Made by a program: the position numbers and the translations under genes. From a virus: a stretch of 38,633 nt of DNA. Below are positions 2,101 through 38,633 of the stretch, in pieces (positions within the stretch are counted from its first letter, which is position 1; each line of letters starts with the position of its first letter). The stretch is taken from positions 1-38,633 of IMG/VR virus record IMGVR_UViG_3300036770_003971. One strand, 5' to 3'. The notes below the pieces were generated by a model, which saw only the letters and a list, made by a program, of their open reading frames with translations, had not been told where the DNA came from and searched no databases.

Positions 2101-2554
2101 GGCGAAACCTATCCGGATTCGGCAGCACAATCCCCGCGTCTGCCCCTAGTCTATAAGCCCCTTCGATTAACGCGCCATACTCAACCTTGTTCGTTTTCCG
2201 CCCTTCCTCGTTGCGCTCGGATGACCTGACGAATTTGTATTGTTTTCCGTCCGGACCGGTCTTGATGTCTGCGCCCCATTCCCTTTCCTTGACCATCATC
2301 TTAACTTCTTCAGGCGTGTAGCCGGTGTCGTTGCTTATCATTTCACAAAGCCGGTGAAACCAGCCGCGTTGCTCGGCGGATAGGCTGTTGACGTGAGGCT
2401 TGATAATGACCTCGTAAGGCCGTTTCTGCGTGTCGCTAGGCAATGTTACTTCTTCCGTGAGGTATCGGATGCAGTTTGCAAGCTGAAGGTCTGAGCGCAA
2501 TATGTAGGTCTTTTCGGGCTTCATCCGAGTGCGTGGCTTTTGGAGGGCGGTCAT
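2093..2554 (-). CDS. ninB: NinB recombination protein
   Basis: 153 residues from the ATG at 2554, just after the methyltransferase stop; lambda NinB (Orf) is 146. Residues 14-25 (TYILRSDLQLAN) and 40-75 (RPYEVIIKPH...LSAEQRGWFHRLCEMIS) match NinB, followed by GYTPEEVKMMVKEREWG. Lambda NinB binds single-stranded DNA and SSB and substitutes for RecFOR in Red recombination. Here it is on a different transcript from the ERF, exonuclease and SSB-like genes (8349-9997) that it would work with. Confidence 0.88.
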   Translation of the reverse strand: MTALQKPRTRMKPEKTYILRSDLQLANCIRYLTEEVTLPSDTQKRPYEVIIKPHVNSLSAEQRGWFHRLCEMISNDTGYTPEEVKMMVKEREWGADIKTGPDGKQYKFVRSSERNEEGRKTNKVEYGALIEGAYRLGADAGIVLPNPDRFRRE

Positions 2555-2555
2555 T

Positions 2556-3956
2556 CTACAGTCTGCCAATACGGGCAAAGCACTTGTCTATGTCTGATAT
2601 TTTACCCTTGTGCGCTACGATTATTTTTTGCTCACGCTTCGGGAACTTGCGGGTATTCAGTGTTTTCTTGGCATGAGCTAACCGCGTAAACTCGCACTCA
2701 ACATACACAATCCGGTTGTATACGCTTAACCCCTGTTCTTTTAAAAACATTTCGGTTTCTGATTCGCTGCAATAATACGCGCCGTTTTTGTCCCTACTGT
2801 CCCCGGTCATTATCACGAAAAACCGGTTATCTTTTAATCTGGCTATGGCCTGTTTGTAGCCTGAAAAAAGTAGGTCACGGAACTCATCGTAAGTCGGGCA
2901 TGAATTGATTTCGCCCGCTGGCGGCTTGCCATCGTAATCAAGATACTTCTCAACCTTGTAGTAAGGCGGGCAGGTAAACACTAAATCAATCGGTATTTCA
3001 GGGTCATATTTTGAACTGTCTGCCTGTACCCATCTGACGCGCCCATCGAACTGCGAGCAAATAGCGTTATTTGCATCAACCTGGTTCTGCCTGATTTCAC
3101 TGGCAAGGTATTGATAGCCGCAAGCGCCAGCAACAAACCCAAACTGAACCCCGCCGCCAAACGGGTTATAAACTACCCCGCCGTCTTTCGGCATAAAGAA
3201 CCTTGCTATAATTTCGCAGGCAAGCGGGTCAAGCACTGAAGCGTTGCCGTTGTGTGATTTAGTTGTTTCGACTACCTCGCCGTTTTCGTCAAGGGTGCGC
3301 CGCATGTTTACCACGTTGCTGTAGCCGTTTTCACCCTGCCAACAACCGTCACGAGTTGCGTAGGTCGGGTTTGTTATTCCCAAAGCCGCGCCCGCTGCGT
3401 TTATCTGTTCGTTCCATTCTTTTTTTAGTCTTAACCAATCGCCCTTAGTGGTTATCCATACGTTTGTCATGGTCACATGCGCAAGTAATTTCATGCGAAC
3501 GTCTGACAACTTGCCGCGTACCATGTAGTGAAATCCTGACATTTTAAGGTATGTCTGAAAGCCGAGCGATTCAAACAGTTTTGGAGTTTCAAACTTGCTT
3601 TTCGGGTCTGTGGTTATTATTGCCGGATAGCCCGCGACATTTTCAGCGACCACTCTTTCAACAAGTTCCCGATATAATTCTGGCGTGTAGTGGACTGGCT
3701 CAATAACGGACTGTAGCAAGCAAAATTCGCGCTCACTGTGATTATTCTGAAAGGTCATAAACCCCGCAAAGTTCCCGTCAATCTCAAGTATTACAGCAGA
3801 ATGAATCTGCATGTTTTTCCTTGCCGCACGTTGCGCGATGCCGTCCTCTATCGCTAGTTTAGCGACTGCTTTTTCAAAGCCTGAGCCAATTATTGACGGT
3901 AATACTGTCCACTTGATTGAATCGCCTGAGTTGAATAATGTTAAATTACTGTTCAT
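2556..3956 (-). CDS. GNAT-DNA methyltransferase fusion (putative base-modification enzyme)
   Basis: 466 residues, ATG at 3956 after an AAGGGGAA ribosome site. Residues about 30-150 have the strand-helix pattern of a GNAT acetyltransferase (VILEIDGNFAGFMTFQ, then KLFESLGFQTYLKMSGFHYMV). Residues about 235-440 form a Rossmann methyltransferase: a SAM-binding motif at 262-272 (VYNPFGGGVQF) and the catalytic CPPY at 329-332 typical of N6-adenine or N4-cytosine amino methylases. Motif I comes before the CPPY, as in the gamma/alpha order. A GNAT fold joined to an amino-methylase, next to a radical-SAM-like gene, suggests a modified exocyclic amine larger than methyl, in the manner of Mu Mom. That chemistry is inference. 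Confidence 0.75.
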   Translation of the reverse strand: MNSNLTLFNSGDSIKWTVLPSIIGSGFEKAVAKLAIEDGIAQRAARKNMQIHSAVILEIDGNFAGFMTFQNNHSEREFCLLQSVIEPVHYTPELYRELVERVVAENVAGYPAIITTDPKSKFETPKLFESLGFQTYLKMSGFHYMVRGKLSDVRMKLLAHVTMTNVWITTKGDWLRLKKEWNEQINAAGAALGITNPTYATRDGCWQGENGYSNVVNMRRTLDENGEVVETTKSHNGNASVLDPLACEIIARFFMPKDGGVVYNPFGGGVQFGFVAGACGYQYLASEIRQNQVDANNAICSQFDGRVRWVQADSSKYDPEIPIDLVFTCPPYYKVEKYLDYDGKPPAGEINSCPTYDEFRDLLFSGYKQAIARLKDNRFFVIMTGDSRDKNGAYYCSESETEMFLKEQGLSVYNRIVYVECEFTRLAHAKKTLNTRKFPKREQKIIVAHKGKISDIDKCFARIGRL

Positions 3957-3971: not shown

Positions 3972-4838
3972 TTAAGAGCTAAAGAATGTTTGTTGTGGCG
4001 GATATGGTCTAACGTCAGGATTATCTAGTAATCCAGCCCCGCATAGTTCAGAGCATCCTGAACAATGCCCTAGATAAGTTTGTGATTCAGGCGCTATTGA
4101 TATAGTCCTGATTGCTGTTAAATCTTTTATTTTTCTTATATGAATAACCCCTGATTGCACTAGGTAGTGATTAGCGTTTACCCGCAACGGATTGTCTATT
4201 ATTGGGTTCATTGACATTAGCATTTTTTGTGTTTCGTTCATAGCGAATCCAATCGGGTCTAATAAATTAAAATCACATGAAACAACCCGCGCAATACTCG
4301 TCCCGCCTTTGTTCTTGTATCTTTGTATTTCTGTAAGCCGCCTTGATAAATGCTGTGAACTGTCAAGTCCTGATACTGATGTGTTTAAAACTGTCCCGCA
4401 TTTCACAAGTCTTTCAATCTGTGAATCTGACGCCTTGCGCCAGTGCTTAGTTATTATGACTGGTATCGCATAAGGGGCGAGCCATTCTACGACTTCAACG
4501 GTTTCTTCCCATGCGTGTGACGGGTCGCCCATTGTGCCTATCCTGAAAAAACCTAGCGGCGAATCCTTGACTGCGCGCTCAATGTTTTTAGCTTGAGCCC
4601 TTGTGTAAACCTTGCGAACTACAGCCCTCGAAAAGTCTATACCCATGTATTTAGACATGCTTGACGCGTAACAAGCCTGATAACAGCCTTTCTCGCCATG
4701 CGCCGCAATACCAGCCGTGCAGCCTTTAACCACGTCAATATCAAGAACGCCCTTTCTGTTAATATCAACAGTCAAAACGTCTTTGTAGTATCGTTTTGGC
4801 TTTTTGGCGCAAGGTGATTCTTGGCTAAACAGTTGCAC
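3972..4838 (-). CDS. Radical-SAM-like iron-sulfur protein of the modification cassette
   Basis: 288 residues, probable GTG start at 4838 behind ACAGGGGAA. Residues 37-60 carry GC(40)...GC(52)YQAC(56)YA, a Cys arrangement seen in phage radical-SAM-like proteins although not the standard CX3CX2C. Alternating strand-helix units (FFRIGTMGDPSH, PVIITKHWRK, NTSVSGL, ARVVSCDFNL, RVNANHY) fit a TIM barrel. A second Cys set near the C-terminus (GHCSGCSELCGAG) could bind another cluster. It lies 15 bp upstream of the GNAT-methylase gene and probably makes or modifies the group that enzyme transfers. Substrate unknown. Confidence 0.65.
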   Translation of the reverse strand: MQLFSQESPCAKKPKRYYKDVLTVDINRKGVLDIDVVKGCTAGIAAHGEKGCYQACYASSMSKYMGIDFSRAVVRKVYTRAQAKNIERAVKDSPLGFFRIGTMGDPSHAWEETVEVVEWLAPYAIPVIITKHWRKASDSQIERLVKCGTVLNTSVSGLDSSQHLSRRLTEIQRYKNKGGTSIARVVSCDFNLLDPIGFAMNETQKMLMSMNPIIDNPLRVNANHYLVQSGVIHIRKIKDLTAIRTISIAPESQTYLGHCSGCSELCGAGLLDNPDVRPYPPQQTFFSS

Positions 4839-7410: not shown

Positions 7411-7811
7411 TGACAATCGACGAACAGATAGCAGTGCTTCAGGCGTACAAGGCGGGGAAGCGGATTGATTGGCATACTCCAGGGCATAAAATTAGCGGTC
7501 AGTTTGATATTGGCTGTTTCGGGTGCGGTGATACGCAGCGTTTTGACTTCTTAAACAATATCTACAAAATCGCGCCCTCTTTCATCATAGTCAACGGCGT
7601 TGAGGTTCCTGAGCCGGTGAGGGTGATGCCGGAATTTGGCGCTGATGTTTTTATTGTGGACGGCACGGTAGAAAAAGGGGTTCTTTGCGTGGGGAGACAT
7701 ACGGAATCACGCTATCAGAACGTAGCGTTTGCAAATGGCCTCATGCACCTTACCGAAGCCGCCGCCCGTCAGCATTATGAGGCGTTAATCCTGCCGAGTA
7801 AACAGAAATGA
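7410..7811 (+). CDS. Hypothetical 133-residue protein
   Basis: ATG at 7410 inside TGATG; a GTG at 7407 is an alternative. A phage-type sequence starting MTIDEQIAVLQAYKAGKRID, with a GCFGCGD motif near residue 36 and a beta-rich second half (FIIVNGVEVPEP, ADVFIVDGT). No function recognised. Coupled to both neighbours. Confidence 0.65.
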   Translation: MTIDEQIAVLQAYKAGKRIDWHTPGHKISGQFDIGCFGCGDTQRFDFLNNIYKIAPSFIIVNGVEVPEPVRVMPEFGADVFIVDGTVEKGVLCVGRHTESRYQNVAFANGLMHLTEAAARQHYEALILPSKQK

Positions 7812-7960
7812 TTAAGCAAGATTACAAGCCGAAAAACTCCGGCACGAAACTAACAGACCAGCCCGAACAGGCGATATTCAGCAATATTTATTGGGCGGCT
7901 GTTGCATTAATAATCTCCGGCTTTCTGTTTGCGATTGCCGTATTTGGAGTGAACCCATGA
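7808..7960 (+). CDS. 50-residue single-pass membrane protein
   Basis: ATG at 7808 and TGA at 7958, each sharing ATGA with its neighbour. A polar N-terminus (MIKQDYKPKNSGTK) is followed by one membrane helix at residues 30-47 (WAAVALIISGFLFAIAVF). No family recognised. Confidence 0.65.
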   Translation: MIKQDYKPKNSGTKLTDQPEQAIFSNIYWAAVALIISGFLFAIAVFGVNP

Positions 7961-8349
7961 TAAACAACAAACTATGCCCCCGCACCCCGCGTCAGGAACT
8001 CGACGCAATAATCAACGATTTCAAAACACGCGGTCGCGAATGGGAAAACCTTGATATTGAGGAACAACAGGAAATATGCGCCCTCGTTGCTTTGACATGG
8101 AAGCGTGAAACGATAAATGACGTACTGGACAAGGTTGACGCGGTACAGCTTGTCGCCTATATGCGGCATGTTGGAATGTCAAAGGCAAAGGAAAAAGCAG
8201 GCGAATACCTGTTTACCAAGATGCAGGACTTTCTGATGCAATTCGCCGAGCAGGAATATCTGGATAACCCGACGACGATTGACGAGGGCGACCGGATAGA
8301 CCAGGCATACGACCGTTTCCGCGACAACGAAATGATGAGGGATATGTGA
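7957..8349 (+). CDS. Hypothetical helical 130-residue protein
   Basis: The ATG at 7957 (MINNKLCPRTPRQELDAIIN) is chosen over an upstream frame extension because it overlaps the previous stop. Helical and acidic, ending DQAYDRFRDNEMMRDM. Sits directly before the ERF recombinase with a TGATG overlap, so it may belong to the recombination operon. Confidence 0.65.
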   Translation: MINNKLCPRTPRQELDAIINDFKTRGREWENLDIEEQQEICALVALTWKRETINDVLDKVDAVQLVAYMRHVGMSKAKEKAGEYLFTKMQDFLMQFAEQEYLDNPTTIDEGDRIDQAYDRFRDNEMMRDM

Positions 8350-28859: not shown

Positions 28860-29070
28860 GCCTGAGATACCCGCTGGATTCGCTTACTAATTTTTGTTTG
28901 CATGGTTCCACATCGCTCATAAATTGAATCTGTGTTGTAATTCCGCAATCCATGCAGAGTAATTGACTGGCTGATAACGGTAGAGACTGCGCCCAGACGT
29001 GATGATGTGACGGATACCATTCAGACTGATTTCCAGTTGTCTTCTTCGTCGTCGTCGGATTCGTAGGCAT
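28852..29070 (-). CDS. Small His/Cys protein between TerL and portal, 72 residues
   Basis: Chosen start is the ATG at 29070, inside the terL end; an upstream start at 29196 lies entirely in terL. The sequence has SEWYPSHHHVW and LLCMDCGITTQIQFM with a second Cys later (EPCKQ), a possible metal site. Its TGA overlaps the portal ATG. No family recognised. Confidence 0.5.
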   Translation of the reverse strand: MPTNPTTTKKTTGNQSEWYPSHHHVWAQSLPLSASQLLCMDCGITTQIQFMSDVEPCKQKLVSESSGYLRHD

Positions 29071-30792: not shown

Positions 30793-30924
30793 TCATGGGA
30801 AAATTACCATTACCGCGCCAACAGAAATTAGCGCAATCGAAGCTGTCTGATTATTATCGTATGCGTCAGACCACACTGGCATAAACAACAAAACAAGCCC
30901 TATGATGTTAACTAATATCGCCAT
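30793..30924 (-). CDS. 43-residue membrane peptide
   Basis: ATG at 30924 after TGAGTGATTGCGAGTA. Two short hydrophobic helices (ILVNIIGLVLLFMPVW and SIALISVGAVMVIF). Ends 13 bases before the small terminase start. No family recognised. Confidence 0.5.
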   Translation of the reverse strand: MAILVNIIGLVLLFMPVWSDAYDNNQTASIALISVGAVMVIFP

Positions 30925-30937
30925 TACTCGCAATCAC

Positions 30938-31015
30938 TCAAAGCGGGACCGAGCGTCCGGCGCTAACCGAAACTTCCCCTAGCGGGTTTTGTATCCGAAG
31001 GCTCGACATAATCAT
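30938..31015 (-). CDS. Possible 25-residue micro-gene
   Basis: ATG at 31015 would have shared ATGA with the stop of the phage gene interrupted by the transposon. Reads MIMSSLRIQNPLGEVSVSAG and ends before the next small gene. Very short; included because the coupling pattern matches the rest of the operon. Confidence 0.3.
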   Translation of the reverse strand: MIMSSLRIQNPLGEVSVSAGRSVPL

Positions 31016-31052
31016 TCGTAGTCCCTCAATGAATCAATGTCCAAGTCCTTAG

Positions 31053-31063
31053 CCACAACTTCC
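31053..31063. repeat. Left target-site duplication (within CCACAACTTCC)
   Basis: CCACAACTTCC here and at 34071-34081 flank the element. Equal spacing to both inverted repeats is obtained with the 8-mer ACAACTTC (31055-31062 and 34073-34080). Confidence 0.85.
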
Positions 31064-31067
31064 GCGA

Positions 31068-31087
31068 TTATCCCTTGACGTCATGTA
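31068..31087 (+). repeat. Left terminal inverted repeat of the transposon
   Basis: TTATCCCTTGACGTCATGTA, matching the reverse complement of 34048-34067 at 19 of 20 positions. It contains the palindrome TGACGTCA. Confidence 0.9.
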
Positions 31088-31104
31088 TATAATACTGATA
31101 TTCT
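31075..31104 (+). promoter_or_regulatory. Transposase promoter within the left end
   Basis: TTGACG (31075-31080), an 18-bp spacer and TATTCT (31099-31104). A perfect TATAAT at 31088-31093 without a good -35 is an alternative. The -35 lies in the inverted repeat. Confidence 0.5.
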
Positions 31105-31134
31105 ATCCCCATACTGCATGTAGAGGATACTTAA

Positions 31135-32010
31135 GTGACTGATTTTACTGTAATAGAATTTTTTAACAGATTCCCAAATGATGACGTTTGCCTTGAGCAT
31201 TTGATGGATACGCGCTTCGGGCTTACTTCTGAATGTCCGAAATGCCATAAAACCAGCCGTTTTCATCGCATCAAAAAGCGCCCTGTTTACGAGTGCCAAT
31301 TTTGTGCGCACCAGATTAGCCCAATGGCCGGAACCCCGTTCGAGAAGTCACGCACCCCTTTGCGCAAGTGGTTCTATGCGATGTATCTGTTTACTACTTC
31401 CCGTCATGGTGTACCAGCTAAGGAATTACAGCGCCAGCTTGGTGTTACCTACAAGTGCGCCTGGCGCATGGGTCACGAGATACGCCAATATATGACCGAT
31501 GTAGACGGTAACGGCCCTATAGGTGGCGGTACAGTCGTGGAAATGGATGAAACCTTTATTGGTGGCAAACCGCGCTACAAAAAGAAAATGTTTGAACCCA
31601 GACGCAATGCCTATATCGGTAAAACCATTGTGTTCGGCATGGTTGAGCGTGATGGTAACGTCCAGACCCATGTAATCAAACAGCGTAGCCGTAAAGCCGT
31701 TCAGAAACACATCAAGCAGGTTGTTAAGGATACGGTTATCGCTACCGATGAAGCGCCTATGTATAAATACCTGACAAAAGCAGGATATTTACACGGTACG
31801 GTCTGCCATGAAACCGGTGAATATGTCAGAGGCCCGATACATACCAATTCGATAGAGGGCTACTGGTCACGCCTCAAAAACTCGATCCGAGGTACACACA
31901 TCCATGTAAGTGGCAAGCACATGCCTAAATACTTGGGTGAATTTGAGTACCGCTACAATATGCGCAAAAGCCCGAAATATATGTTTGAAAGGCTTTTGGG
32001 GGCTTTTTAA
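31135..32010 (+). CDS. IS1595-family (ISXO2-like) DDE transposase
   Basis: 291 residues from a GTG at 31135 behind AGAGGA. An N-terminal zinc ribbon has CPKC at 34-37 and CQFC at 54-57. The catalytic domain has EMDETFIGGK (D138), ATDEAP (D205) and HTNSIEGYWSRLK (N238, E241), the DDE/N pattern of ISXO2-like transposases. Length is normal and the frame is intact, so the element may be active. It cuts and joins the element ends at the TTATCCC repeats. Confidence 0.93.
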   Translation: MTDFTVIEFFNRFPNDDVCLEHLMDTRFGLTSECPKCHKTSRFHRIKKRPVYECQFCAHQISPMAGTPFEKSRTPLRKWFYAMYLFTTSRHGVPAKELQRQLGVTYKCAWRMGHEIRQYMTDVDGNGPIGGGTVVEMDETFIGGKPRYKKKMFEPRRNAYIGKTIVFGMVERDGNVQTHVIKQRSRKAVQKHIKQVVKDTVIATDEAPMYKYLTKAGYLHGTVCHETGEYVRGPIHTNSIEGYWSRLKNSIRGTHIHVSGKHMPKYLGEFEYRYNMRKSPKYMFERLLGAF

Positions 32011-32132
32011 TCAAGTTTAATCGGGCTAAATCCATTATCGTCCTGATATACTTGACCTTCATAAAGTTCCACATCATGCCAAATATTCACGACGTGGGGT
32101 TTTGTTTTAGTCAATCTGGGGAGTAATGACAT
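32007..32132 (-). CDS. Possible 41-residue ORF between transposase and protease
   Basis: An ATG at 32132 on the minus strand leads into a protein-like stretch (KPHVVNIWHDVELYEGQVYQ then DDNGFSPIKLD). It overlaps the transposase end by four bases and the protease start. It may be a leftover of a former cargo gene. No ribosome site stands out. Confidence 0.25.
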   Translation of the reverse strand: MSLLPRLTKTKPHVVNIWHDVELYEGQVYQDDNGFSPIKLD

Positions 32133-32913
32133 GAGTAATGGCCATAGTATTCCTGTCTCAGCGCCTGTTGATACCGACTCTGCTGGTCGCGGCGGCGAAC
32201 AGGCAATACAATCAGTTTTTCGGGTCATTTGTCGTGATACAAATTCATCTGGCACCTGTTTTCTGCACATAAGCGGGAATCTAATAACGGCAGAACACGT
32301 TATTCGTGGGAGCAAAAACCCTGAAATAGTTCTTTCAAATGGCAACCTTATTGCGTCATCTGTTACGGCCAGCAATTTAGATTTAGATTTGGCTGTATTA
32401 AAGCCCGTGACATCAATTAATGGACAGGCGTTAAAAATTTCAAGCCAAACAGACTTCGCTATCGGAACCCAGGTATCAACTTGGGGTTTCCCCGGCGGTT
32501 ATGGGGGTTCAATTCCTATGCTAAGCGTAGGGTATTTATCAGCAATGACCGGCTTCAAAACAAATTCCGGTAAAGTTATTAAGCAGTGGGTAGTTAACGC
32601 CGCCTTTAATTCTGGAAATTCGGGCGGACCATTATTGCATGTTGAAACAGGAGATGTTATTGGCATAGTTTCAAGCAAGCTAGCGCCACTTAGTCCCTCT
32701 ACTAAAATTGCGCTCGAAGCGCTGGCAAGCAATACCAGTGGTTTTATGTATACAAGCACGGCGCCCGATGGAACGATAACTAACTATTCAGAAGGACAGG
32801 TGATTGCCGCTGTGCTGAATGATCTGCGTCAGCAAATTCAACTTGTTATTGGAATGGCCGTGCTATTGTCTGATCTTCGTGATTATTTAAACGCAAATAA
32901 AATTACGCCTTAA
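32131..32913 (+). CDS. Trypsin-like serine protease, transposon cargo
   Basis: 260 residues, ATG at 32131 after GGGGAG. The chymotrypsin-fold triad is visible: H56 in NLITAEHVI, D86 in LDLDLAVLK, and S164 in FNSGNSGGPLL. There is no signal peptide or membrane helix, so it should act in the cytosol. The C-terminal 60 residues (QVIAAVLNDLRQQIQLVIGM then AVLLSDLRDYL) form a predicted coiled coil or oligomerisation helix. It faces a two-gene unit on the other strand whose ends meet 8 bp away. Proteases of this kind occur in several bacterial immune systems, which is only suggestive here. Confidence 0.85.
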   Translation: MSNGHSIPVSAPVDTDSAGRGGEQAIQSVFRVICRDTNSSGTCFLHISGNLITAEHVIRGSKNPEIVLSNGNLIASSVTASNLDLDLAVLKPVTSINGQALKISSQTDFAIGTQVSTWGFPGGYGGSIPMLSVGYLSAMTGFKTNSGKVIKQWVVNAAFNSGNSGGPLLHVETGDVIGIVSSKLAPLSPSTKIALEALASNTSGFMYTSTAPDGTITNYSEGQVIAAVLNDLRQQIQLVIGMAVLLSDLRDYLNANKITP

Positions 32914-32920
32914 ATAAGGC

Positions 32921-33073
32921 CTATTTTTTCTTTGGTTTCTGGCTTTTTGCCATCCGTTCCAATAGCCCGTCAAACTTCTCTTTGTTACCTGTAGATGGAT
33001 GCTGCTTGATAAACTTCTTCAAGCCCTTTTCGTCTTTGGCTTCTTCGAGAGATGTGTATTTACCGTCTGACAT
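32921..33073 (-). CDS. 50-residue basic protein, transposon cargo
   Basis: ATG at 33073 overlaps the stop of the 313-residue gene (TAATG). Reads MSDGKYTSLEEAKDEKGLKK and ends in a Lys-rich tail (AKSQKPKKK). Soluble and helical. Tight coupling suggests it partners the 313-residue protein. No family name known. Confidence 0.7.
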   Translation of the reverse strand: MSDGKYTSLEEAKDEKGLKKFIKQHPSTGNKEKFDGLLERMAKSQKPKKK

Positions 33074-34014
33074 TAATCGAATCCAAGAGTGGTTTGTTTG
33101 CCTGGATTTATTCGAGGCCTGAAATCTAGAACTTCCAGAATTTTATAATGATTATTTATCTTACCGGATTCTGAAATTGTTTGGGTTATTTCTAACCTGA
33201 CCTTGTAGGTGTCATTTATCATGGCTCCTCCACGCTCAAATGCTTGCTGGGCTATGTCAGTCTCAGAAATATCTGCATAAATATGCGTGTCTCCATAATA
33301 GAAACGCCATTTATCCACGCTTTGGTCATATACAGGAGAATAGACCTGAATGAATGCCGTAACTTCCTGTGTTCCGCAATCTTCCGCTGCGTCAGTTTGC
33401 TTAATTCTTAAAATACCCTTAGCCTCTTCTTTTGTTATCGCTTCTGAAACCACGTTTTTATGCTCAAACTCAACAGTTTCATAGCCTTCTTGGGAAAGCG
33501 GCTTAACGATGGACTGAATACTTTTAATGGCTTTATTGTCTTTAAAAAGCTCGTAAGCCTCTGGCATTACATTGACGTGATTATTATCGCCCAATACTGT
33601 TATTTGTATAACAGATTTACCTTCAATTTCCTTTAATTCTGCTTTTGATATCTTTCTATCTTTTAGCCACTTTACAAACTTAAAAAGGCCGATTGCTGCG
33701 AATTCAGCAGGAGGTAAAATAATACCTAACCATTCAAGTATCTCTTTTGCGTCAGAGACCTCTTGAATTCCGATTAGTTCTTTTGCTTGTTCGTAAAAAT
33801 CAAGCACGACTTGTAAGTCTAACTGGAAACAATTTTGGTCTAGATCGGCATTTACCAGAACACGGACAGAAGCCCTATTCTGATTAAATTTTGAATTAGC
33901 AATCTTACATAGATCGCCTATAGCCAAAAGCGCGGGGGCCAAATGGTTAACGTCTATTGAATGGCCTGATAAACTCGGCCCATCGTATCTAATCCTAACA
34001 AAATCATCTCGCAT
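33073..34014 (-). CDS. 313-residue cargo protein of unknown function
   Basis: ATG at 34014. The start (FVRIRYDGPSLSGHSIDVNH then LAPALLAIGDLCKIAN) and the stretch NQNRASVRVLVNADLDQNCF are recognisable from uncharacterised proteins in many bacterial genomes. Residues 94-116 (EWLGIILPPAEFAAIGLFKF) form a likely membrane or buried hydrophobic helix. A beta-rich C-terminal half has TAFIQVYSPVYDQSVDKWRF and YGDTHIYADIS. Lower GC than the phage genes around it. It forms a unit with the 50-residue protein and lies between the protease and the right transposon end. Function unknown. Confidence 0.75.
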   Translation of the reverse strand: MRDDFVRIRYDGPSLSGHSIDVNHLAPALLAIGDLCKIANSKFNQNRASVRVLVNADLDQNCFQLDLQVVLDFYEQAKELIGIQEVSDAKEILEWLGIILPPAEFAAIGLFKFVKWLKDRKISKAELKEIEGKSVIQITVLGDNNHVNVMPEAYELFKDNKAIKSIQSIVKPLSQEGYETVEFEHKNVVSEAITKEEAKGILRIKQTDAAEDCGTQEVTAFIQVYSPVYDQSVDKWRFYYGDTHIYADISETDIAQQAFERGGAMINDTYKVRLEITQTISESGKINNHYKILEVLDFRPRINPGKQTTLGFD

Positions 34015-34047
34015 TTTTAAATAATATGCCTAATTTGTGATTTATCG

Positions 34048-34067
34048 TACATGACGTCATGGGATAA
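34048..34067 (-). repeat. Right terminal inverted repeat of the transposon
   Basis: Reverse complement reads TTATCCCATGACGTCATGTA. It now forms the last codons and stop of the interrupted phage gene. Confidence 0.9.
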
Positions 34068-34362
34068 ACCCCACAACTTCCAACCATTGAACGTCCTTGT
34101 TATTGCCTGCCGTTGCAACCAGTTTTATCAGGCTGCGTCCGTCTTGCGATGTTGTGACAACCATAGACTTGACATTACTGGTTAATGATTCGTTACTGAT
34201 TGCGGCCTGTCCGGATTCAACGGTGACAGTTACGGCCGTGACCGTGCCGTTTACCTGCGCCCATGATGTGTAATCAAAACTAATAGTCTCTTGCCCTGAC
34301 TCAAACGCGAGTCGCGACTGTTTGCGTCGGGTTCTGGTCGGAGTGACATTGTAAGTTTTCAT
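34057..34362 (-). CDS. Phage Ig-like/virion-type protein with transposon-altered C-terminus
   Basis: 101 residues, ATG at 34362 sharing ATGA with the micro-gene upstream. Beta-rich sequence (ETISFDYTSWAQVNGTVTAV, VTVESGQAAISNESLTSNVK, MVVTTSQDGRSLIKLVATAG) matches small phage proteins that often precede packaging genes. After DVQWLEVV the frame enters the right transposon end and stops as GFIP. Across the element, the original frame reads on as AKDLDIDSLRDYE and stop. So 13 native residues were replaced by four and the protein is probably still made. Confidence 0.8.
   Translation of the reverse strand: MKTYNVTPTRTRRKQSRLAFESGQETISFDYTSWAQVNGTVTAVTVTVESGQAAISNESLTSNVKSMVVTTSQDGRSLIKLVATAGNNKDVQWLEVVGFIP
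34071..34081. repeat. Right target-site duplication (within CCACAACTTCC)
   Basis: Identical to 31053-31063. On the coding strand it is the E-V-V codon stretch of the interrupted gene. Confidence 0.85.
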
Positions 34363-38007: not shown

Positions 38008-38633
38008 AATTTTCGGCTTCTATTCGGGTGATGAAAAAATGAATCCCACCTGAGCACTCGTTAAACCTGTCAGTATCCCATTTGCCAGCGGTTACGCGCT
38101 CGCCTGCGCGGTACTCGGTCATGCCGTCGTGCTTGCTTATGCCTTTATCGGCGCCGATTACCTCAATAACGTCAGCGTATTCTGCGCGGCATTTGCGGCC
38201 TGATGCGTTTGAACGCTTGGCAGATTCAGGTATGCGCAGCTTCACAATTACGCCTGTAGCGCATTTTTTCCAGCCTATTACATCGCCGCAATCCGGCAGG
38301 ATGGATGTCTGCGCTAATGCGTGGTCGGCTGATTTGGCTCCGGACAGGTCGGCTCTGGACAGGTTGGCTCTGGACAGGTCGGCTCTGGACAGGTTGGCTC
38401 CGGACAGGTCGGCTTCGTACAGGTTGGCTCTGGACAGGTCGGCTCCGGACAGGTCGGCTCTGGACAGGTCGGCTCCGGACAGGTTGGCTACGTACAGGTT
38501 GGCTCTGGACAGGTCGGCTCCGGACAGGTCGGCTCCGGACAGGTCGGCTCTGGACAGGTTGGCTCCGGACAGGTCGGCTCTGGACAGGTCGGCTCCGGAC
38601 AGGTTGGCTACGTACAGGTTGGCTCTGGACAGG
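38000..38633 (-). CDS. Pentapeptide-repeat protein, C-terminal part with DUF5758-like domain
   Basis: Open from the window edge to a TAA at 38000. The repeats end near 38335. The remaining 111 residues (with motifs ALAQTSILP and VIGWKK) resemble the DUF5758 domain that often ends phage pentapeptide-repeat proteins; this assignment is from memory of the family. A shorter reading from an internal GTG at 38245 would miss both the repeats and the start of the domain. The stop codon overlaps the ATG of the next small gene at 38007, suggesting coupled translation. Bases 38507-38633 duplicate 1-127 and should be counted once. Confidence 0.88.
   Translation of the reverse strand, partial: LSRANLYVANLSGADLSRADLSGANLSRADLSGADLSGADLSRANLYVANLSGADLSRADLSGADLSRANLYEADLSGANLSRADLSRANLSRADLSGAKSADHALAQTSILPDCGDVIGWKKCATGVIVKLRIPESAKRSNASGRKCRAEYADVIEVIGADKGISKHDGMTEYRAGERVTAGKWDTDRFNECSGGIHFFITRIEAENYE
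38335..38633 (-). repeat. 15-bp tandem array coding pentapeptide repeats (right part)
   Basis: The same 15-bp unit family as at 1-468, about 20 units, of which the last 127 bp duplicate the start of the window. After circularisation the full array is about 43 units long. Confidence 0.95.
38507..38633. repeat. Second copy of the 127-bp terminal direct repeat
   Basis: Identical to 1-127. It lies wholly inside the 15-bp tandem repeat array, so the exact number of array units in the real genome could differ from the assembly. Confidence 0.9.

Follow-up and report, generated by a model that had tools for sequence, protein, structure and literature searches.

A complete transposon of the IS1595 family, carrying passenger genes, is inserted in the genome of a phage. 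The genome is that of IMG/VR virus record IMGVR_UViG_3300036770_003971, which was analyzed as a whole (38,633 bases, hereafter the window). Besides its transposase, the transposon codes for a protein of 50 amino acids, a trypsin-like serine protease and a protein of the PDC-S42/LAPAL family. We consider it very probable that a cargo-carrying IS1595 transposon jumped into the phage, that the transposase and the 50-amino-acid protein form the backbone of the clade to which the element belongs, and that the cargo is exchangeable. The insertion of an IS1595 element in a phage is unsurprising in itself, and this kind of element is already known. What is new is the apparent second backbone gene and a cargo family that is linked to repressors in other phages.

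The transposon, its ends and the empty site

The original prediction had placed a passenger-bearing IS1595 transposon inside the phage genome, and the ends, the target-site duplication (TSD) and the transposase all bear this out (Table 1). The inverted repeats, which had been described as 20 bp long, match at 19 of 20 bases between positions 31068-31087 and 34048-34067. In 60 dinucleotide shuffles of the region 30900-34300, the best pair of 20-nucleotide arms reached 18/20 in one case, 17 in two and 14 to 16 in the rest. When the ends were set by the 8-bp duplication, 21 of their first 26 bases matched, with a score of 25 compared with 10 for the runner-up. The claim of a duplicated sequence stood as to its exactness but not as to its length. 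An 11-bp repeat, CCACAACTTCC, is present at 31053-31063 and 34071-34081, and it was rejected as the duplication because the aligned ends of related elements, from a search that tried 8-bp duplications only, put the start of the transposon at 31063. Only the middle 8 bp, ACAACTTC, are taken as duplicated; the other three bases are element sequence at one end and are matched by flank bases at the other. Eight bp is the usual duplication length of the IS1595 family, and a zinc finger is also a usual trait, according to PMC8101967. The G+C content of the element is 42.3%, compared with 50.4% and 48.0% in the flanks.

The transposase matched the DDE_Tnp_IS1595 domain (PF12762, 2.3e-36, 125.5 bits against a cut-off of 27), the zinc ribbon PF12760 (4.2e-10, 39.9 bits against 25.4), with CPKC and CQFC motifs, and NF033547 (198.2 bits against 75). 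The element shares with the IS1595 family the transposase domains, the zinc ribbon, the inverted repeats and the 8-bp TSD. As had been predicted, the transposase gene is intact, being open over 291 amino acids, and the open frame together with the exact duplication would fit recent movement.

The empty site could be read from the sequence. When the flanks were joined and a single copy of the 8-bp TSD was kept, they formed an in-frame open reading frame (ORF) of 110 amino acids ending in QWLEVV-AKDLDIDSLRDYE, in agreement with the reconstruction of the host gene in the original prediction. The insertion swapped the final 13 codons of this 110-codon gene for four codons and a stop that falls inside the terminal repeat; the present ORF has 101 amino acids and ends in GFIP, which is the replacement that had been described for the gene at 34057. 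The interrupted gene sits between lysis and terminase genes. It had no PHROG match, and no relative was found by a single-protein scan of viral contigs or among annotated phages. A search with the 50-amino-acid protein, however, reached a related contig, IMGVR_UViG_3300025889_000375 (locus L094, record G379), which agrees with the window phage, over the aligned parts, at 58% in the portal protein, 58% in the major capsid protein, 44% in the terminase TerL and 37% in the lysozyme. In this contig the counterpart of the interrupted gene is intact (7664-8005, 113 amino acids, 44% over 100 amino acids), and the two phages have in common the gene order lysozyme, interrupted gene, TerL, portal, capsid. 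The comparison with related phages proposed in the original prediction therefore supports the empty site. The TerL of Phage CBW1004C-Prop1 agrees at 56% with that of the window phage, and the interrupted gene gave no match in it. The host phage is a relative of Pseudanabaena phage Pam1 and Phage CBW1004C-Prop1. Compared as DNA, the whole element had no relative among annotated phages, and against plasmids it gave one 108-base piece of the transposase and nothing else.

Table 1. Features of the transposon and of the interrupted gene (positions in the window).
Feature	Position	Strand	Remarks
Complete IS1595-family transposon	31063..34072		3010 bp; ends CGCGATTATCCC / GGGGTTTATCCC; terminal repeats 21/26, exact 8-bp TSD, inner arms 19/20
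TSD, left copy ACAACTTC	31055..31062		8 bp
TSD, right copy ACAACTTC	34073..34080		8 bp
Left terminal inverted repeat	31063..31088	+	26 bases compared
Right terminal inverted repeat	34047..34072	-	26 bases compared; provides the stop codon at which the interrupted gene now ends
IS1595 transposase	31135..32010	+	291 amino acids, GTG start, open frame, zinc ribbon and DDE domain
Trypsin-like serine protease, cargo 1	32131..32913	+	260 amino acids; His-56, Asp-86, Ser-164 motifs
50-amino-acid protein of the IS1595 clade	32921..33073	-	start and stop of the preceding gene share one base
PDC-S42/LAPAL-family protein, cargo 2	33073..34014	-	313 amino acids; predicted C-terminal OB-like domain
Interrupted phage gene, 5' part	34057..34362	-	last four codons now read from the transposon
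Interrupted phage gene, displaced 3' end	31012..31053	-	13 codons and stop

Related elements and the conserved 50-amino-acid protein

Scans with the transposase identified 66 loci in bacterial genomes (identity up to 75%) and seven in viral contigs. Ten of these 73 loci were left out, and the remaining 63 were examined together with the window, 64 in all. The search for element ends was restricted to duplications of 8 bp in which no more than one base differed. It delimited 43 of the 64 elements (window included) clearly and with an exact 8-bp TSD; these are 1,661-3,490 bp long and hold 735-2,517 bp (median, 1,132) beyond the transposase. Passenger genes in some IS1595 groups were reportedly described by Siguier and co-workers in 2009. 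The cargo set consisted of 54 ORFs of at least 100 amino acids from 42 relatives. Its Pfam matches included Trypsin_2 (six), Peptidase_M78 (two), PemK (two), Fic, a SocA-type protein and a DNA methylase (one each), and the member counts imply that no fewer than 21 of these ORFs had no Pfam match at 0.001. The cargo proteins of different elements are mostly unrelated to one another. In one element (L059) a 311-amino-acid cargo ORF resembling a DNA methylase lies beside a 173-amino-acid ORF, and the two are possibly a small restriction-modification pair.

The IS1595 family is described with a single transposase gene in PMC8101967, whereas the clade of the window element adds a conserved 50-amino-acid gene and passengers. 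The 50-amino-acid protein had matches at 1e-6 or below at 21 related loci (40-73%), always on the strand opposite to the transposase. The alignment (A3, 21 rows) has the consensus MSxGKYLSLEEARKxKKLKRFAKEHPSKGxKKxFDxLLxRMAK. Differences per codon position were 0.34, 0.20 and 0.58, and the nonsynonymous rate (dN) was below the synonymous rate (dS) in all 53 computable pairs of the 210, with dN 0.02 and dS 1.11 in the pair L027/L073. The ORF is under purifying selection. A profile of the protein detected it with E < 1e-3 in 32 of the 64 loci, 13 of them outside the set used to build the profile; against 629 other-strand ORFs its best value was only 0.21. At the DNA level, the window element was compared with six near elements. 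All homology fell within element positions 1-950, where the left end and the transposase lie, except that three of the six also had some at approximately 1864-2013, at the 50-amino-acid gene. None was found in the cargo genes. In a transposase tree of 62 sequences (four of the 64 were dropped, and L095 and L112 were added), all 31 bearers of the protein grouped within a single clade of 35 members (support 100/98), and its presence required 3 changes on the tree compared with 21.0 after shuffling.

The protein was also searched for by itself in whole genomes. It was present in three of 369 genomes of a first class, two of these places being known element loci and one lying at a contig edge that hides any transposase. 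A second class gave 10 places in nine of 385 genomes: eight adjoin a transposase, one is a 23-residue match and one is without a transposase. Together the two scans gave 13 places, 10 of them next to an IS1595 transposase. The protein had no Pfam match above the cut-off, no NCBIfam match, and no match at 1e-3 among annotated plasmids and phages. A literature search found no account of it, and the original description of the IS1595 family may mention it. Its structural model is modest (predicted local distance difference test, pLDDT, 71.5; predicted template modeling score, pTM, 0.32).

The gene overlaps the 3' end of the transposase gene in 14 of 20 elements, and in the other six, including the window, the two genes are 340-934 bp apart, so that overlap does not explain the conservation. 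In 17 of 22 elements a cargo ORF has its stop close to the start of the 50-amino-acid gene (-27 to +13 bases), and in four of those 17, the window among them, stop and start share one base. The other five had no such cargo ORF on the list, four of them because the element ends are not known. The original prediction had counted three cargo genes. The protease and the S42 protein did prove to be cargo; the 50-amino-acid ORF was rejected as ordinary cargo, being kept with the transposase, under selection, tracking the clade and forming an island of homology while the cargo changes. Its behavior is that of a second backbone gene, which leaves two genes as the cargo of the window element.

A sister form was found in Rhizobiales-type elements, whose trypsin-like cargo protein of 347-410 amino acids has an NPxHREDFxxL-like tail at its C terminus. 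In two Mucilaginibacter genomes this tail occurs as a free protein of 39-40 amino acids beside IS1595 transposases (E of about 7e-7). The best cross-hit between the 50-amino-acid family and the tail family was 0.024, the best shuffled control being 0.045, and the link between the two is only suggestive. Trypsin-like cargo with an HREDFxxL-like tail was seen at the IS1595 transposases of L031, L043-L047, L049, L067 and L002.

Four viral contigs carry a protein of the 50-amino-acid type. In L095 a complete element (TSD TTTTAATT) precedes a gene that is terminase-like by ORF reading. In the related phage contig L094/G379 (28067-28930), an integrase-like gene is adjoined by the small protein, a cargo gene and a single transposon-like end (at 28923), and the whole record yielded no transposase; by eye, the cargo protein looks membrane-bound. 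On the 4,976 bases of L096, where no transposase was found, a terminase-like gene is closely preceded by the small protein and a cargo gene of similar appearance (2513-3310). The fourth, L093, is the same contig as L006, in which the transposase is cut by the contig end.

The cargo genes and other features of the window

The protease matched PF13365 (7.8e-18, 66 bits against a cut-off of 27.6) and has the catalytic motifs TAEH, DLAVL and GNSGG. Its best matches in the PDB are HtrA/Deg chains, but against the curated HtrA cut-offs, which are 250 bits and more, it reached 55.3 bits at best. Judged from these matches, the protein is to be called only a trypsin-like domain and not an HtrA-level enzyme. 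It is Trypsin_2-type cargo, as are the tailed passengers of the Rhizobiales-type elements; these, however, have the HREDFxxL tail and lie opposite to the transposase, whereas the window protease is tailless and shares the strand of the transposase. The PADLOC family PDC-S45 matched seven cargo ORFs, which would be the tailed trypsin-like proteins.

The S42 protein matched the PDC-S42/LAPAL family near its full length (PDLC05015, 9.7e-53; NF053583, 177.7 bits against a cut-off of 60). PDC-S42 is a PADLOC candidate label for a putative anti-phage role, and a literature search found no paper naming it. In the structural model (pLDDT 82.1), residues 214-303 aligned to the single-stranded DNA-binding protein Rim1 over 83 residues (root-mean-square deviation 2.7) with a Z of 8.7, which barely exceeds the score level that the aligner calls common. 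Foldseek returned no PDB chain at E ≤ 0.001 and four viral models with no known function in their names. A single-protein scan of viral contigs found no relative of the S42 protein.

Genes of this family occur in five of 369 genomes of one class. One of them (G093) is inside a complete IS1595 element with the TSD GTTTATAG, and the cargo of another element (L040) is also S42-like, if more distant (7.4e-12). In other records the family is mostly outside transposons; the window copy, like that of G093 and the more distant one of L040, is part of a transposon. Among viruses, 68 S42 loci were found and 67 were taken into a neighborhood analysis, with 35 representatives, 29 of which had enough upstream sequence; the counts that follow are of ORFs, not of loci. 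The 57 nearest upstream ORFs included HTH_3 (10), Peptidase_S24 (six), Phage_CI_repr (five) and YdaS (five), and the 53 downstream ORFs included N peptide (three). In a Listeria phage and a Bifidobacterium phage the S42 gene adjoins an integrase; near the viral S42 genes an integrase was matched at only two loci, by a profile that was too weak to be relied on. A fixed pair of S42 and trypsin found no support: no trypsin hit was obtained near the 67 viral S42 loci, and no trypsin-like gene was found in the annotated S42 regions of the Listeria phage, the Bifidobacterium phage and an Ewingella plasmid.

The rexAB genes of phage lambda are repressor-linked superinfection-exclusion genes. A share of the S42 genes of other phages resemble them in gene position, being beside CI-type repressors and, in a few cases, before N-type antiterminators, whereas the S42 gene of the window is inside a transposon and not beside a CI repressor. 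By this analogy, the S42 protein may have a role in superinfection exclusion or defense. Since S42 genes are found beside CI-type repressors elsewhere, and S42-type genes are carried by at least two other IS1595 elements, the cargo of the window element would include a protective or exclusion gene.

Elsewhere in the window, a 15-bp minisatellite is common to both record ends (1-469 and 38336-38633), and its minus strand reads as GADLS-type pentapeptide repeats in an open frame. A single pentapeptide-repeat gene therefore probably runs across the ends of a record that may be close to complete and circularly permuted. Positions 2556-3956 hold a 466-amino-acid ORF, the C-terminal part of which matches DNA methyltransferases, and the adjoining 288-amino-acid ORF (3972-4838) had no PHROG match at 0.001.

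Competing explanations and significance

In the explanation that we favor, an IS1595 transposon with cargo inserted into a phage related to Pam1 and CBW1004C-Prop1. The transposase and the ends of about 26 bp define the 3,010-bp unit, whose insertion left the 8-bp duplication. The clade keeps the transposase and the opposite-strand 50-amino-acid protein, and the other genes differ from element to element. The window cargo, an S42/LAPAL protein and a trypsin-like protease, would include a protective or exclusion gene, and the 50-amino-acid protein may aid the transposase or act as a constant partner of the cargo.

Several observations weigh against parts of this explanation. The many exact TSDs among the elements are partly a product of the end search, which was restricted to 8-bp duplications and tolerated a single mismatch at most. 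The 54 cargo ORFs matched 82 PADLOC families, many through one member, and 98 flanking ORFs matched 27, which is no clear excess of defense genes in the cargo. A window-like transposase was absent from the stretch fetched around the other four of the five genomic S42 genes, and none of the 67 viral S42 loci had a window-like transposase, small protein or protease. Most S42 genes therefore travel without IS1595, and the protease and the S42 protein need not act together. Some of the S42 genes of viruses are found within Mu-like blocks of head genes (Phage_tail_S, of Mu-type morphogenesis, in four of the 57 upstream ORFs and Mu-like_Pro in four of the 53 downstream ORFs), and the NCBIfam name of the family is 'putative phage structural protein'; a structural role is the less likely reading.

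That the insertion is an assembly chimera, with a bacterial transposon misjoined into a phage contig, would be in keeping with a record that is a viral contig. It is nevertheless extremely improbable, being largely refuted by the exact 8-bp duplication at both ends and by the in-frame restored gene, a relative of which is whole in another phage. A selfish passenger that brings no benefit to the phage with its cargo and only recently entered a dispensable gene is a real possibility, though we put it well below even. The exact TSD and open transposase agree with it, as do an interrupted gene without a PHROG match and the lack of a demonstrated PADLOC excess; the very varied cargo of the relatives (PemK, Fic, Peptidase_M78, DNA methylase) could be addiction genes or chance passengers. 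L094 and L096, on the other hand, keep the small protein and cargo without a transposase, which hints at retention, and two cases are few.

The role of the 50-amino-acid protein divides the explanations further. It could be a transposition factor that binds the transposase, the ends or a host factor, and this we place not far short of an even chance: the protein tracks the transposase tree, its gene overlaps the 3' end of the transposase gene in most elements, and eight of the 10 places found with the protein alone in the 385 genomes adjoin a transposase. Its retention without a transposase in two phage contigs, its start at the cargo stop in 17 of 22 elements and the 19 of 62 tree transposases without a detected form of it all argue the other way. 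The position at the cargo stop, together with the retained pairs of small protein and cargo, would suit a constant partner of variable cargo (a chaperone, adaptor, antidote or localizer), as would the similar-looking motif that in a neighboring clade is a C-terminal tail of trypsin-like cargo and, in two Mucilaginibacter genomes, a free protein. One partner for mostly unrelated cargo proteins would be odd, however, and the tail family is linked to the 50-amino-acid family no better than a shuffled control (0.024 versus 0.045); we consider this role less likely than not. More ambitious, and unlikely as matters stand, is that this large clade is a two-part delivery vehicle, in which the transposase would travel with a constant 50-amino-acid adaptor translated together with an exchangeable, often protective effector, and phages would capture such units and keep the adaptor-effector pair after loss of the transposase.

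Under the favored explanation, a transposon that jumped into the phage with exchangeable cargo, spread of that cargo by infection, as the original prediction had proposed, is plausible. A passenger-bearing transposon has been caught in a phage, with an empty site backed by a relative, and a family described with a single transposase gene has a second conserved gene in one clade. With a constant small protein beside ever-changing cargo, the way in which such transposons swap and use their cargo becomes accessible to direct tests. Should the cargo protect cells, phages would gain weapons against rival phages by way of transposition.

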